A stretch of DNA of 64,000 nucleotides from Dehalococcoidia bacterium (GTDB lineage Bacteria; Chloroflexota; Dehalococcoidia; Lucifugimonadales; UBA1123): NCBI GenBank assembly GCA_009838465.1, contig VXRN01000023.1, positions 248,001-312,000 on the forward strand, read 5' to 3'. Made by a program: the position numbers and the translations under genes. Below, piece after piece: positions 48,932 through 55,765 of the stretch (position 1 is its first letter; every line of letters starts with the position of its first letter). The notes under the pieces were generated by a model, which was not told the origin of the DNA, searched no databases, and worked only from the letters and a program-made list of their open reading frames with translations.

Positions 48932-49141
48932 ATGTGCAGAAGCATTAAGAAACTCAGGAGCGCCGACCGTCCGGCGTCTGACGAGGAGATACGCGAAGCG
49001 GCGCTTCAGTTCGTCCGCAAGATAAGTGGGTATAGAAAACCCTCAAAGGCCAACGAAGCGGTGTTCGATCATGCGGTTGAAGACATAGCCGCCGTATCCC
49101 GAAGGATGCTCGACTCGCTCCGTGTAGGGGCGCGTGCCTGA
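48932..49141 (+). CDS. DUF2277 family protein
   Basis: A 69-residue protein starting MCRSIKKLRSADRPASDEEI with the conserved Cys2 and RSI-x-LR opening of DUF2277. The core AALQFVRKISGYRKPSKANE (about 24-43) follows. The function of this family is unknown. It resembles a small helical DNA- or RNA-associated protein in size and charge. Convergent with the following SDR gene, stops 6 bases apart. Confidence 0.85.
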   Translation: MCRSIKKLRSADRPASDEEIREAALQFVRKISGYRKPSKANEAVFDHAVEDIAAVSRRMLDSLRVGARA

Positions 49142-50426: not shown

Positions 50427-50498
50427 AGCGGGAGACGGGATTCGAACCCGCGACAGCCTGCTTGGAAGGCAGGGACTCTACCACTGAGCTACTCCCGC
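50427..50498 (-). tRNA. tRNA-Gly (UCC)
   Basis: On the minus strand: acceptor GCGGGAG with CTCCCGC, D arm with AGCTCAGTGG, anticodon arm CCTGC-CTTCCAA-GCAGG giving UCC, and T arm CGGGTTCGAATCCCG. CCA follows directly (revealed as TGG at 50424-50426), so it is encoded. Confidence 0.95.
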
Positions 50499-50601: not shown

Positions 50602-51447
50602 ATGACCTACGAATTCATCGAATATGACGCATCCGACGGCATCGGGCGGGTTTACCTTGCCCGACCCGAGAAACTCAACGCCCTCAGCCGCGAACTCCAG
50701 GCCGAGCTCGTGGACTGTATGCAAATGTTGGACGACGATCCCGATATCCGCGTTATGACACTCATGGGTAGAGGACGTGCCTTCTGCGCCGGGTACGACA
50801 TCACGCCTCCCGCTACCCCCGAAGCCGAAGTCTCCGCTCAGGCGGCGCGGGACAACATCCGCGTGGACATCCACCGCATGAAGCAAACCCCCAATACCAT
50901 GTCCCAGATACTCAACCTCTCCAAGCCCGTCATCGTCGGCATTCACGGATACTGCATCGCCGGAGGCACAGACCTCGCCATGCACTGTGATATATCCATC
51001 GCGGCTGACGACGCCCAGATAGGCTTCCCGCCAGTGCGCTCGATGGGCGCGCCGCCCACCCACATGTGGACATACATGGTCGGCCCGCAGTGGGCCAAGT
51101 GGTTCCTTCTCACCGGCGAATCCGTATCCGGCAGGCGCGCAGAGGAGATCGGATTTGTATGGAAGTCCGTCCCGCGCGACGAGCTTGAGGACACCGTTGA
51201 GGACCTCGCCCGAACCATGGCCAGGATCCCCTGGGAACTGCTTGCCGCCAACAAGAGCATCGTCAACAAGGCTATGGAACTTATGGGACGTGATACCCTC
51301 CAGCGCCTCGCCGCCGAAACCGACGCAATCGCTCACCAGGCTCCGATAGTCAAGGAATTCTCCCGCCGCTCCAGAGCCGAGGGCCTCAAGGCCGCCCTGG
51401 AATGGCGAGACGGCCCCTTCCGAGACTACCGCGGCAGCCGCAGCTAA
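50602..51447 (+). CDS. Enoyl-CoA hydratase/isomerase family protein
   Basis: A second crotonase-fold protein, 281 residues; the ATG at 50602 has AAAGGG 8 bases upstream. Features are RVYLARPEKLNALSRELQAE (14-33), the oxyanion region GRGRAFCAGYDITPP (about 61-75), GIHGYCIAGGTDLAMHCDIS (about 112-131), and VRSMGAPPTHMWTYMVGPQW. The Gly-rich segments are intact. It is larger than many crotonases because of a helical C-terminus. Neighbouring genes do not fix the substrate. It lies upstream of the exporter leader but should not share its promoter. Confidence 0.87.
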   Translation: MTYEFIEYDASDGIGRVYLARPEKLNALSRELQAELVDCMQMLDDDPDIRVMTLMGRGRAFCAGYDITPPATPEAEVSAQAARDNIRVDIHRMKQTPNTMSQILNLSKPVIVGIHGYCIAGGTDLAMHCDISIAADDAQIGFPPVRSMGAPPTHMWTYMVGPQWAKWFLLTGESVSGRRAEEIGFVWKSVPRDELEDTVEDLARTMARIPWELLAANKSIVNKAMELMGRDTLQRLAAETDAIAHQAPIVKEFSRRSRAEGLKAALEWRDGPFRDYRGSRS

Positions 51448-51456
51448 AATCCTCCC

Positions 51457-51486
51457 TTGACTTTCGATTAGACTAATCGCTAGCAT
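51457..51486 (+). promoter_or_regulatory. Promoter with operator palindrome for the ABC-2 exporter leader
   Basis: TTGACT at 51457-51462 and TAGCAT at 51481-51486 are separated by 18 bases. Within the spacer lies the perfect dyad CGATTAG-A-CTAATCG (51465-51479), which should bind a dimeric repressor at the promoter. Confidence 0.6.
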
Positions 51487-51503
51487 CAATCTATCAGGAG
51501 TTG

Positions 51504-51605
51504 ATGGTCGAAATGCTGAACATATCCCCAATCGCCACGATGATCGTGAGAACCCGCGGGCTGCGGGTTGGCCGCGTTCGTGGGGGAAGTGCGCATTCGA
51601 CTTGA
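51504..51605 (+). CDS. 33-residue leader peptide of an attenuator-like region
   Basis: ATG at 51504, with CAGGAG 3 bases upstream (a second ATG three codons later is better spaced). The peptide begins MVEMLNISPIATMIVRTRGL and continues RVGRVRGGSAHST; it is rich in Arg, Val and Gly. The DNA includes an AACCCGC/GCGGGTT hairpin (51551-51569). Codons 26-29 (51580-51589, GTGGGGGAAG) can pair with 51628-51637 (CTTCGCCCAC, 9 of 10), which would block the terminator at 51632. This resembles ribosome-mediated attenuation. Confidence 0.5.
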   Translation: MVEMLNISPIATMIVRTRGLRVGRVRGGSAHST

Positions 51606-51631
51606 GCTAAACTCTTTAAGGTCGTTCCTTC

Positions 51632-51667
51632 GCCCACTATCGCGGTAATCGAGATAGTGGGCTTTTT
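51632..51667 (+). terminator. Terminator in the ABC-2 exporter leader
   Basis: GCCCACTATC pairs with GATAGTGGGC over an 11-base loop, followed by TTTTT. It lies 27 bases after the leader-peptide stop and 49 bases before the ATPase start, so most transcripts would end here unless an antiterminator forms. Confidence 0.9.
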
Positions 51668-51715
51668 CTATTTGTCTGAAAATCCGCCGTTAGAGCGGAA
51701 ACCAGGAGAAAGATT

Positions 51716-52558
51716 ATGAACAGCGCAATGCCGCTCAGAGTCGAATCCCTTGCGAAGAACTTTCCCAGCGGCCCCGACTGGCGTCAAGTCGTTCCGGTAC
51801 TCAGAAACCGGCCTCGAAAGATAAAAGTCAGGCCCATTGACGACGTTTCCTTCGAGATTCAGCGCGGAGAGATATACGGAATCATCGGCGCCAACGGCTC
51901 CGGCAAGTCAACGCTCGTCCGCGTACTGAGCACCTTGCTGCTGCCCGATTCGGGCCTCGCAGAGGTATTCGGATACGATGTCGTCAGAGAACCCGCGAAG
52001 GTCAGGCCCGCGATAAACCGCGTCTCCGCCGACCCTTCCTTCTTCAGAAGCATGAGCGCGATTGAAAACCTGATGTTCTTTGGTCGCGTCTATGGCCTGA
52101 AGACATCGGGCATAAAGTCACGCGCCTACGACATTCTCGACCGCCTCATGCTCACCGAGCAACAGGCCCGCGAGCCTATGCAGAACCTGTCTCGCGGCCA
52201 GCAGCAGAAGGTAGCCGTCGCCCGAGCGTTTCTGACTTCGCCCGTCCTGATGCTTCTCGACGAACCGACCACCGGCCTCGATCCACGCAGCCGCCGCGAA
52301 GTCCAGGCATTCATTCAGACCGTGCGCCGTGACCACGACGCCACGATTCTGCTGACTACACACGATATGCAGGAGGCCGACCTGCTCTGCGACCGCATAG
52401 CAGTCTTCTCCGCAGGCCGCATCATAGCAGAGGGTACGCCCAACCAGCTGCGCGCCATGGTCGCGGGTGACAGGCCCTTGGAGGAAGTTGACATGGAAGA
52501 AGTCTATCTCGAACTGACCGGCAGAAGTATAGAGGAGGACGAGGAGACAGATGATTAG
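51716..52558 (+). CDS. ABC-2 type exporter, ATP-binding protein
   Basis: The 280-residue ATPase has Walker A GIIGANGSGKSTLVR (about 55-69), the signature LSRGQQQKVAVARAF (about 158-172), and Walker B LMLLDEPTTGLDPRSRREV (about 178-196). The final helical tail is acidic. It resembles drug or polysaccharide exporter ATPases. AGGAG lies 9 bases upstream of the ATG. It overlaps the permease start by 8 bases. Its transcription is probably gated by the upstream attenuator. Confidence 0.92.
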   Translation: MNSAMPLRVESLAKNFPSGPDWRQVVPVLRNRPRKIKVRPIDDVSFEIQRGEIYGIIGANGSGKSTLVRVLSTLLLPDSGLAEVFGYDVVREPAKVRPAINRVSADPSFFRSMSAIENLMFFGRVYGLKTSGIKSRAYDILDRLMLTEQQAREPMQNLSRGQQQKVAVARAFLTSPVLMLLDEPTTGLDPRSRREVQAFIQTVRRDHDATILLTTHDMQEADLLCDRIAVFSAGRIIAEGTPNQLRAMVAGDRPLEEVDMEEVYLELTGRSIEEDEETDD

Positions 52559-53402
52559 CGCAGACTTTCATACCGCGCTCGGAAGGCCCCGGCCAATCGG
52601 ACTCGCCTGGGCGTTCTTCGAGCGCCAGATAAATCTCTGGAAGCGATACTGGTGCTGGGAACTCGTCTGGCTCGTCTATGGAGTCGTGAACACCCTCGCC
52701 ATCACCTTCATTGCCGAACAGGTCGGCCAGGACAGCATCGTCGGCAGGAATGAGATCAACAGGCTCGTTATGTTCCTGCTGATTGGGACACTGGTCTGGG
52801 CCTACCTATCCGCCGTCCTCGACGATGTCAGCCTGGTCGTCGGATGGGAACGCTGGGAGGGGACCATAGAACATACCCTCATGGCCCCTGTGCCGCGCGT
52901 CATACACCTGCTCGGAATGTCCGTGTTCGGAGTCGCCCACGCCGTACTCAGAACTGTTCTCATTTTCGCCCTGGCCGCGCCCTTCTTCGACATAAACGTC
53001 GCGAACGCCGACTGGCTCGCCGCGTTCGCGGTCATAGCCGTCGGAAGCGTCAGCGTAATCGGACTCGCGATACTCGCGGGAATACTGCCGCTGCTATACC
53101 CAGAGCGCGGCCCACAGATGTCCTTCATGGTGCAGGCCGTCGTTCTGCTCGTGTCCGGCGTCTATTACAGCGTGGACGTGCTGCCTGGCTGGTTGCAGGC
53201 CGTTTCCTACCTGTCTCCGGCGACTTATATGCTCGACGGCATACGCGGCGCGATGCTGGACGGGCAAGGCATTGGAGAGATGACAAGAATCCTGGTAATG
53301 CTGCTCGTCTTCGGCGTGCTCCTGGTGCCTCTCAGCGTAGCCGCCTTCGCTCTCGCCGAGAAGTGGGCCAAGATTACAGGGCGCCTCAAGAGACACGGCT
53401 GA
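52551..53402 (+). CDS. ABC-2 type exporter, permease
   Basis: A 283-residue membrane protein with six helices, typical of ABC-2 permeases. The N-terminal cytosolic stretch RPIGLAWAFFERQINLWKRYW is followed by helices at about 35-55, 65-82, 112-135, 145-170, 190-215 and 245-270. The GVYYSVDVLPGWLQAVSYL loop is typical (about 202-220). It overlaps the ATPase gene and completes an exporter of about 2 + 2 subunits. Substrate unknown; a drug, lipid or polysaccharide are all possible. Confidence 0.9.
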   Translation: MISADFHTALGRPRPIGLAWAFFERQINLWKRYWCWELVWLVYGVVNTLAITFIAEQVGQDSIVGRNEINRLVMFLLIGTLVWAYLSAVLDDVSLVVGWERWEGTIEHTLMAPVPRVIHLLGMSVFGVAHAVLRTVLIFALAAPFFDINVANADWLAAFAVIAVGSVSVIGLAILAGILPLLYPERGPQMSFMVQAVVLLVSGVYYSVDVLPGWLQAVSYLSPATYMLDGIRGAMLDGQGIGEMTRILVMLLVFGVLLVPLSVAAFALAEKWAKITGRLKRHG

Positions 53403-54773: not shown

Positions 54774-55655
54774 CTATTTGTAATTCTCTGTTAGTTCCTC
54801 GTAGCTGATGTAGTTGCCATCCCTAAGCAGTTCCCGTAGAGCGAGTAGGAATTTGTCCCTGTGTCGGTTGTTGTACTTCCAAGCTAGTTCCTCAATGTAC
54901 AGGTCAAGGTACTTGGGGCTAACATGGTGGTATGCTCCCATAATGGAGCGTTTCAATAAAGCCCATACGCCTTCAATAGTGTTGGTATGCACTTCCCCTC
55001 GCGCCCATTCGTATTGACTATGGTTAACAGCCTCATGCCTGGGCAGTCCACGATAGCCGTGATGCTGGTCGGTAAAGATAGCCTTAACATTAGGGTCAAT
55101 ATGCGATAGCACGAACCTATGGAGTGTTCGCCTGTCCCTCTTACGAACTACCTGTACTATCACATCGCCGCGTCGCTCCACTATACCCACTACTAGGGTC
55201 TTGTTCTCGAAGGGGTTTTCGTAGCGTCCTCTGTTTCTCCCACCTACCCATGTTTCATCAACCTCGACGATCCCATTCAACTTAGGTGGTGGGAGTTGGG
55301 ACATGGCAAAGCGTATGCGATGGTTCAAGTACCAAGCAGTCTTCGGGGCGACATCAAGCATACGCTGTACCTGTAATGCTGACATACCCTTCTTACTTTC
55401 GCACATCAGGTAGGTAGCCAGTACCCACTTCCTCAAAGGTAAGTTGCTCCTATGTAGGGCTGTTCCCGCAGTAACTGAGAAGTAGTACCAACAGTCCATA
55501 CACTCGTAAATCTTGCGTACAGTATGGCGGGACAGGTTAAGGCTACCGCATCTGGTACAGGCTATCCCGTTATACCACTTAATCCGCTCGAACAGTCTCC
55601 GGCATTTCTTTTCGGTGTTGTAGTTGTCCAATATGTCCATTAGTGTTGTCGCCAT
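54774..55655 (-). CDS. IS1595-family (ISXO2-like) transposase
   Basis: A DDE transposase of 293 residues. The ATG at 55655 has GGAG 9 bases upstream; an ATG two codons earlier is too close to the site. The N-terminal zinc ribbon has CTRCGSLNLSRH (about 34-45) and CMDCWYYF (about 54-61). The catalytic region includes GIVEVDETWVGGRNRGR (about 131-147), IFTDQHHGYRGLP (about 191-203) and HTNTIEGVWALLKRSI (about 219-234), with the Asp, Asp and terminal Glu of the family. It appears intact. Terminal repeats of the element were not identified. This family is known to leave 8-bp target duplications. Confidence 0.88.
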   Translation of the reverse strand: MATTLMDILDNYNTEKKCRRLFERIKWYNGIACTRCGSLNLSRHTVRKIYECMDCWYYFSVTAGTALHRSNLPLRKWVLATYLMCESKKGMSALQVQRMLDVAPKTAWYLNHRIRFAMSQLPPPKLNGIVEVDETWVGGRNRGRYENPFENKTLVVGIVERRGDVIVQVVRKRDRRTLHRFVLSHIDPNVKAIFTDQHHGYRGLPRHEAVNHSQYEWARGEVHTNTIEGVWALLKRSIMGAYHHVSPKYLDLYIEELAWKYNNRHRDKFLLALRELLRDGNYISYEELTENYK

Positions 55656-55765
55656 AAGCATATCTCCATGCTTATATTATAGCAACAAACTGTCTGCCTC
55701 AGCTGCGAATAGTGCATATGTTTTCATGTAATGGCACGCATGAAAACTTTGTGGTAGGGTAAAAG

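Follow-up and report, generated by a model that had tools for sequence, protein, structure and literature searches.

In the 64,000-nucleotide stretch of Dehalococcoidia DNA analysed here (the window), a short forward-strand leader lies between an enoyl-CoA hydratase gene, which ends at position 51447 just 5' of it, and the genes of an ABC exporter, and the question it raises is how transcription of the exporter is controlled. A first-pass annotation of this DNA had proposed dual control, by an operator within the promoter and by a ribosome translating a leader peptide. In our view, the leader is likely to be a ribosome-mediated transcription attenuator of a DrrA/DrrB-like ABC-2 exporter, induced by ribosome stalling. 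Sequence comparison backs the promoter, the leader frame, the terminator, the alternative pairings between RNA arms A and B and between arms B and C, and the enrichment of an Arg/Lys-X-Arg/Lys (+X+) motif in the encoded peptides.

Exporter genes and their surroundings

The leader is followed on the + strand by a gene for a DrrA-like ABC exporter ATPase of 280 amino acids (51716-52558) and by one for a DrrB-like ABC-2 permease of 283 amino acids (52551-53402), which overlaps the ATPase gene by eight bases. In NCBIfam, the ATPase matches DrrA (TIGR01188) best, at 247.9 bits (cut-off 312.45), and the permease has DrrB (TIGR01247) as its second-best match, at 42.8 bits (cut-off 223.05); the window pair falls under both curated cut-offs. 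The locus used for close comparison, L035, lies in genome G002 of an uncultured Dehalococcoidia from the same genus as the window genome, with an ATPase 88% identical to that of the window and a leader 84% identical; the other two members of the genus have neither the ATPase ortholog nor the leader.

Several neighbouring features were also recorded. About 1 kb 5' of the leader, a tRNA gene (50427-50498, - strand) is encoded in the opposite orientation, and the L035 leader likewise has a tRNA gene upstream (1717-1788 of that locus, - strand). Elsewhere in the window, a DUF2277 protein is encoded at 48932-49141, adjoining a HAD-type phosphatase gene, and a 295-amino-acid frame (54774-55661, - strand) with an N-terminal zinc-ribbon-like CxxC...CxxC pattern resembles, by eye, the IS1595-type transposases.

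Promoter and palindrome

A sigma-70-type promoter, TTGACT-N18-TAGCAT, occupies 51457-51486 on the + strand, with the -35 hexamer at 51457-51462 and the -10 hexamer at 51481-51486. Both hexamers are located where the first-pass annotation had placed them, and both are unchanged in L035. It is also the only promoter-like site on the + strand between the hydratase gene and the exporter. Across the leaders described below, a near-consensus promoter (at least 9 of 12 positions) is found within 90 nt 5' of the leader open reading frame (uORF) in 52% of cases, as compared to 3% of shuffled sequences.

The second half of the earlier proposal did not hold up. The palindrome CGATTAGACTAATCG (CGATTAG and CTAATCG around a central A, 51465-51479, no strand assigned) lies in the promoter spacer, and the fact that a perfect 15-nt dyad sits exactly between the -35 and -10 hexamers speaks for a TetR/MarR-type repressor additionally binding there. 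Nevertheless, L035 reads CAATTCGCCGACTCG at this position, so that the dyad is not kept, and no such palindrome is seen in the promoter spacers of the other leaders. Moreover, the window holds seven perfect 7+1+7 dyads, this one among them, and the genome contains no second perfect copy; a copy upstream of a nearby TetR/MarR gene had been suggested as a check, and no regulator gene was found among the frames neighbouring the leader and exporter. Because the palindrome is altered in L035, is one of seven equal dyads in the window and is single-copy in the genome, it was rejected as an operator. It is probably incidental, judging from the sequences compared, and we regard dual control by a repressor as very improbable.

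Conservation of the leader frame

Downstream of the promoter, an AGGAG ribosome-binding site (51496-51500, + strand), identical in L035, precedes a frame of 33 codons plus TGA (51504-51605, + strand; stop codon at 51603-51605), which starts with ATG and encodes the peptide MVEMLNISPIATMIVRTRGLRVGRVRGGSAHST. The spacing between AGGAG and the ATG at 51504 is only 3 nt, which counts against the leader-peptide reading; an alternative in-frame ATG is present at 51513. The 33-codon frame and its ribosome site, claimed in the first-pass annotation, are thus both present, and frame, Shine-Dalgarno (SD) sequence and peptide are all conserved in L035, whose peptide MVEMLNISPITTMIVRARCLRAGRVRGGSVHSA has the same length. 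The two uORFs are 85% identical, with 15 changes in 102 nt and no indels; eight codons carry synonymous changes only and six carry nonsynonymous ones. All five arginines are retained, three of them through differing codons (AGA/AGG, CGC/CGT and CGG/AGG). Codons 16-18 (51549-51557, + strand) read Arg-Thr-Arg in the window and Arg-Ala-Arg in L035, again with differing Arg codons, and, given the family-wide enrichment of +X+ described below, they are the predicted site of drug-dependent stalling; a second +X+ motif of the window peptide is Arg24-Val-Arg26. Terminator identity between the two loci is 84%, and it drops to only 57% in the stretch that follows the terminator. The earlier proposal had been made to depend on conservation of the frame and of the pairing arms in relatives, and uORF, antiterminator and terminator are indeed conserved.

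Outside these loci, weak DNA matches to the leader in genomes G004 and G006 and a peptide match in G235 all lie inside long coding frames and were discarded as chance, and a search for the leader DNA pattern in viral contigs returned none.

Alternative RNA stems in the leader

The leader ends in an intrinsic terminator (51632-51668, + strand), composed of GCCCACTATC (51632-51641) and GATAGTGGGC (51653-51662) followed by TTTTTC; it was not listed by our terminator scan because the scan is limited to 8-nt loops and its loop is longer. The antiterminator would be formed by arm B, GTGGGGGAAG (51580-51589, + strand), and arm C, CTTCGCCCAC (51628-51637, + strand), which overlaps the terminator 5' arm; 9 of 10 positions pair, as had been claimed, and GCCGCG immediately 5' of arm B pairs in addition with CGCGGT in the terminator loop region. 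Arm B is supported by the permutation test given below, by covariation and by the fold. A third element, overlooked in the first-pass annotation, is arm A (51507-51529, + strand), in which GTCGAA (51507-51512) pairs with 51596-51601 and TCCCC (51525-51529) with 51583-51587; with this anti-antiterminator, the leader has all three stems expected of a classical attenuator. The terminator region folds with -22.7 kcal/mol (z -4.6), the whole leader with z -3.05, and the antiterminator duplex reaches z -3.9 against the shuffled leader.

An internal hairpin, AACCCGC/GCGGGTT (51551-51557/51563-51569, + strand), had also been described inside the leader frame. It is present, but it is only partly kept in L035, with one compensatory pair and one broken pair, and it is missing from the predicted minimum-energy fold. 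The compensatory change, from A-U to G-C between the window and L035, is made by the nonsynonymous changes at codons 17 and 22.

The sequences of the leaders differ too much to be placed in a single alignment, and we therefore used alignment-free permutation tests, in which 54 non-redundant leaders were hybridised each with its own partner and with partners permuted among genomes. With B taken as the 3'-terminal 48 nt of the frame and C as the terminator 5' arm plus loop, the mean B:C duplex energy was -23.6 for own partners and -19.7±0.44 for permuted ones (z -8.8), while the stretch of frame 5' of B, used as a control against C, gave z -0.5. Pairing between the start and the end of the frame (A:B) was likewise stronger for own partners (z -4.4). 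In a table of the B:C helix covering the window and its five nearest relatives (11 pairs, arms aligned on the invariant GGG/CCC), 84.8% of cells pair and double changes occur at 6 of the 11 pairs, whereas slid partners give at most 54.5% pairing; the arms were extracted by hand and by eye, which biases this table towards structure, and the permutation test is independent of that choice. Furthermore, the polarity of the pairing differs between groups, C being CCCAC and B GTGGG in the window group, and C being GTGGGC and B GCCCA in Anaerolineae, a difference that speaks against mere conservation of sequence as the cause of the pairing. Since the leaders share little DNA sequence, it is the structure that appears to be kept. 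Hence the conservation of the antiterminator and terminator extends to their covariation in related genomes: an intrinsic terminator stands between leader frame and gene, and an exclusive, covarying antiterminator spans the frame and the terminator 5' arm. On the strength of these comparisons, we consider it very likely that the leader has the architecture of an attenuator.

Distribution in Chloroflexota and Bacillota

A genome scan recovered ATPases 50-60% identical to that of the window in Anaerolineae, Dehalococcoidia, Thermoflexus-like genomes and Bacillota metagenome-assembled genomes (MAGs). Nearly all of this first set carry a strong terminator directly 5' of the gene, often two in tandem, with an SD sequence and a short frame 5' of these terminators. 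An ortholog of the DrrA-like ATPase (E<=1e-70) was found in 171 of 400 Chloroflexota genomes, and the upstream DNA of 135 orthologs was examined, together with that of 42 other ABC ATPases, processed identically as controls. Intrinsic terminators were found upstream of 107/135 orthologs and of 6/42 controls (Fisher p 3e-14). Requiring a frame of 10-60 codons with an SD sequence before it and its end 10-45 nt 5' of a terminator left 70 leaders (69 of the 135 plus the window) as compared to 1/42 in the controls (p 5e-10); several further leaders have a comparable frame with a weaker SD. The frames across orthologs are mostly 18-54 codons long. The window leader is a member of a widespread, apparently undescribed family. 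In the open-access journal literature, we found no description of a drrA leader attenuator and none of 'RSVP' leader peptides, and a search combining Chloroflexi, leader peptide, attenuation and ABC transporter led only to histidine genes.

Some groups within the family show features of their own. At least two terminators are present in 24 of the 135 upstream regions, many of them in tandem, with near-identical GTGGGC stems before the exporter (e.g., among leaders L037-L059, L040:340-430 and L053:2740-2840); by their sequence, two such terminators could base-pair with each other, 3' arm of the upstream one to 5' arm of the downstream one, and perhaps make a second switch. In leaders L053 and L056-L059, from Bacillota MAGs, the peptides have 18 codons (MIRTMLEVVVKARPRLDC and kin) and the ribosome-binding region GGGGTCG is complementary to CGACCCC near the end of the frame, so that occlusion of the start site may be part of their control. 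Leaders L153, L154, L161 and L190, from large, high-quality genomes of Chloroflexota family f157, end in RRLKR or WRLKR and carry the basic +X+ at the extreme C terminus, unlike the other groups.

Motifs in the leader peptides

Arg/Lys-X-Arg/Lys is the best-known motif for ribosome arrest by macrolides and ketolides, and it is employed in leader uORFs (PMC8298421). The window (RTR) and L035 (RAR) both carry this [R/K]-X-[R/K] signature of ErmDL/Mef(E)L-type leader peptides. Its frequency was evaluated by shuffling residues within each of 54 leader peptides. RxR was observed 47 times (26.7±4.4 in shuffles) and R[LIVM]R 20 times (6.2±2.4), while RR, RxxR and RxxxR were at or under expectation. 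Without the last 12 residues, [RK]x[RK] occurs in 27 of 46 peptides as compared to 12.4±2.6 expected, and with one peptide per similarity cluster the enrichment of +X+ still has z 3.3. The X typically falls at residues 11-20; approximately 40% of the leaders have no +X+ ahead of the last eight residues. Frame +1 of the same DNA showed no enrichment, and frame +2 a milder excess of RxR (z 3.1) with no excess of R[LIVM]R, so that composition may account for some of the RxR signal.

A second motif lies at the C terminus of many peptides, where G-R-[S/T]-[A/V/L/I]-P (first position also C or R) was counted 15 times (0.2 in shuffled peptides). Within arm B, CCCA sits in the frame that reads Pro in 27 of 30 cases, and the Arg and Ser of the motif are written with several different codons; together, the locked Pro frame and the varied codons indicate that the peptide is constrained besides the RNA, at least by frame. 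Given the shared ancestry of the leaders, neither of these counts represents independent events. The window peptide has GGSAH in place of the motif. As a lead only, drawn from the sequences, the C-terminal motif resembles the R-A-[G/P]-P core of the RAPP/RAGP arrest peptides (SecM, ApdA/ApdP; PMC10951233, PMC12992588), and the two have in common an Arg-small-X-Pro close to the C-terminal end of a short peptide with a regulatory role (e.g., GRSVP and CRSAP among the leaders). The core R-A/G-P/G-P itself is not found: the leaders of the family have R-[ST]-[AVL]-P, with A, V or L rather than P or G as third residue, and even this is absent from the window peptide.

A rather doubtful possibility is that of a lineage-wide leader with two stalls, in which drug arrest at the upstream +X+ would switch the exporter on and G-R-[S/T]-[A/V/L]-P would pause drug-free ribosomes on arm B, keeping the terminator on. 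On this view, selection would act on one set of nucleotides in two ways, for pairing as an RNA arm and for arrest as a peptide, which would explain the position of CCCA in the Pro frame; GGSAH in the window would be a diverged version of the motif.

Proposed mechanism and folding of the switch

Based on known attenuators, we infer the following order of events, in which the pairing partners are those backed by comparison. In an untranslated leader, arm A would pair with arm B and the terminator would form. A ribosome reaching the stop codon would cover B, and the terminator would form again. If, on the other hand, a ribosome stalled in the middle of the peptide, it would cover A, together with any ribosomes queued behind it, and leave B free to pair with C before the terminator 3' arm is made, so that RNA polymerase would read through and the exporter would be transcribed. 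The stalling signal would most likely be a ribosome-targeting antibiotic arresting at Arg-X-Arg (codons 16-18 in the window). By analogy, induction by ribosome stalling, probably via a macrolide-like inhibitor, is a probable part of this scheme, and the leader sequences suggest that the exporter is switched on by an antibiotic-stalled ribosome. The cotranscriptional timing, the stall itself, the class of the drug and its export by the pump are likewise what we infer.

The window transcript was folded from its presumed start at 51493 with ribosome-covered RNA masked. With no ribosome, A:B and the terminator formed (1.0); when everything up to a codon-17 ribosome was masked, the full-length RNA gave antiterminator 1.0 and terminator 0.0; and a ribosome placed at codon 25 or at the stop codon brought the terminator back to 1.0. 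When a single ribosome was placed at codon 17 with the 5' RNA left free, B:C led until the terminator was complete, and then the terminator won at equilibrium; like other attenuators, the switch thus requires a queue of ribosomes or cotranscriptional timing. In a uniform equilibrium scan of leaders with +X+, stalled at X, 9 of 30 fell below a terminator probability of 0.5, and random codons were no worse (p 0.27). The terminator value of the window is sensitive to context, small alterations moving it from 0.0 to 0.41, and the 0.41 of the uniform scan is due to differing RNA ends. The earlier claim that a stalled ribosome frees the antiterminator and a finishing one blocks it agrees with the masked folds of the window (codon 17 versus stop codon), but it is less clear-cut in the uniform scan. 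The +X+ position as the distinctive switch site at equilibrium was set aside, as it was not singled out by folding all leaders.

Alternative explanations

The leader could also be a real attenuator that responds, instead of to a drug acting at an arrest motif, to translation slowing down in general or to a shortage of an amino acid (e.g., charged tRNA-Arg). All five arginines are shared by the window and L035, and +X+ is missing from many leaders, as this explanation would allow. However, amino-acid attenuators usually contain tandem codons, and here it is RxR and not RR that is enriched; moreover, the gene under control is an exporter and not an arginine gene. We thus find a sensor of this kind unlikely, and drug-induced stalling remains our preferred reading.

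Two further explanations would dispense with translation of the frame as a signal, and both appear extremely improbable. The hairpin could simply be the terminator of the enoyl-CoA hydratase gene, whose end lies immediately 5' of the leader, with the small frame arising by chance and the exporter promoter located after 51667. Yet a conserved promoter stands between the hydratase gene and the hairpin, the only promoter-like site on the + strand is that at 51457, the spacer past the terminator is the poorly conserved stretch noted above, and the order of uORF, antiterminator and terminator is repeated before the orthologs. The strong structure and its covariation would also suit a riboswitch that binds a protein or metabolite and leaves the frame untranslated, but arginines kept through differing codons, the specific spacing of +X+ and the arm B CCCA locked in the Pro frame (27/30) are at odds with this. 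In addition, a search of Rfam 15 at the gathering threshold matched only three tRNAs in the window, and ten relatives at a relaxed E<=1 gave one tRNA and two weak matches to miRNA models below gathering, none of them plausible.

Significance and comparison with known systems

If the attenuator reading is true, many Chloroflexota, mostly uncultured and not noted for antibiotic responses, wire an exporter to ribosome stalling, which implies that they encounter ribosome-targeting antibiotics in nature. Control by +X+ leaders would then reach a broad chromosomal exporter family, beyond a few mobile and Bacillota resistance genes. It would also hint at the substrate class of the pump, and the context of the arrest motif could be studied on dozens of natural leader peptides. 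Moreover, an RNA pairing arm locked to one frame is a testable case of overlapping selection on peptide and RNA.

The bmrCD genes of Bacillus subtilis, which encode a heterodimeric drug exporter of the ABC-B type, are controlled by a ribosome-mediated attenuator. The first-pass annotation drew this parallel, and it is fair in the sense of working alike, as both have a leader peptide and a terminator ahead of an ABC drug exporter, but the bmrCD leader peptide is unrelated, and the Arg-X-Arg peptides of mef(E)/mel and erm(K) bring these two nearer to the present leader. Functionally closest is mef(E)/mel, a macrolide efflux operon under leader-peptide-dependent attenuation with the leader Mef(E)L, MTASMRLR (PMC4335068); it shares a short Arg-X-Arg leader peptide, an intrinsic terminator, alternative stems and an efflux operon with the system proposed here. 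It differs in that it encodes an MFS pump and an ABC-F protein, is found on mobile elements and has an 8-codon leader of unrelated sequence, whereas here the exporter is a DrrAB-like ABC-2 type, the leader is usually longer and the antiterminator arm lies within the leader frame. The erm(K)/erm(D) leader, MTHSMRLR (PMC4335068, PMC8298421), likewise has the +X+ arrest motif in a uORF, with transcription attenuation in erm(K), but it regulates an rRNA methylase and is unrelated in sequence. The uORFC-6-1 motif before hflX, with Arg-Leu-Arg (PMC8632094), resembles our leaders in its RLR uORF, covarying RNA and proposed role as an antibiotic sensor, but it belongs to Bacillales, precedes a ribosome-rescue helicase and has no link to an ABC exporter. 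Judged by their published descriptions and not by alignment, none of these systems is known to share sequence or gene family with the leader. Overall, the attenuator varies a known kind of control, and its wide distribution had gone unrecognised.
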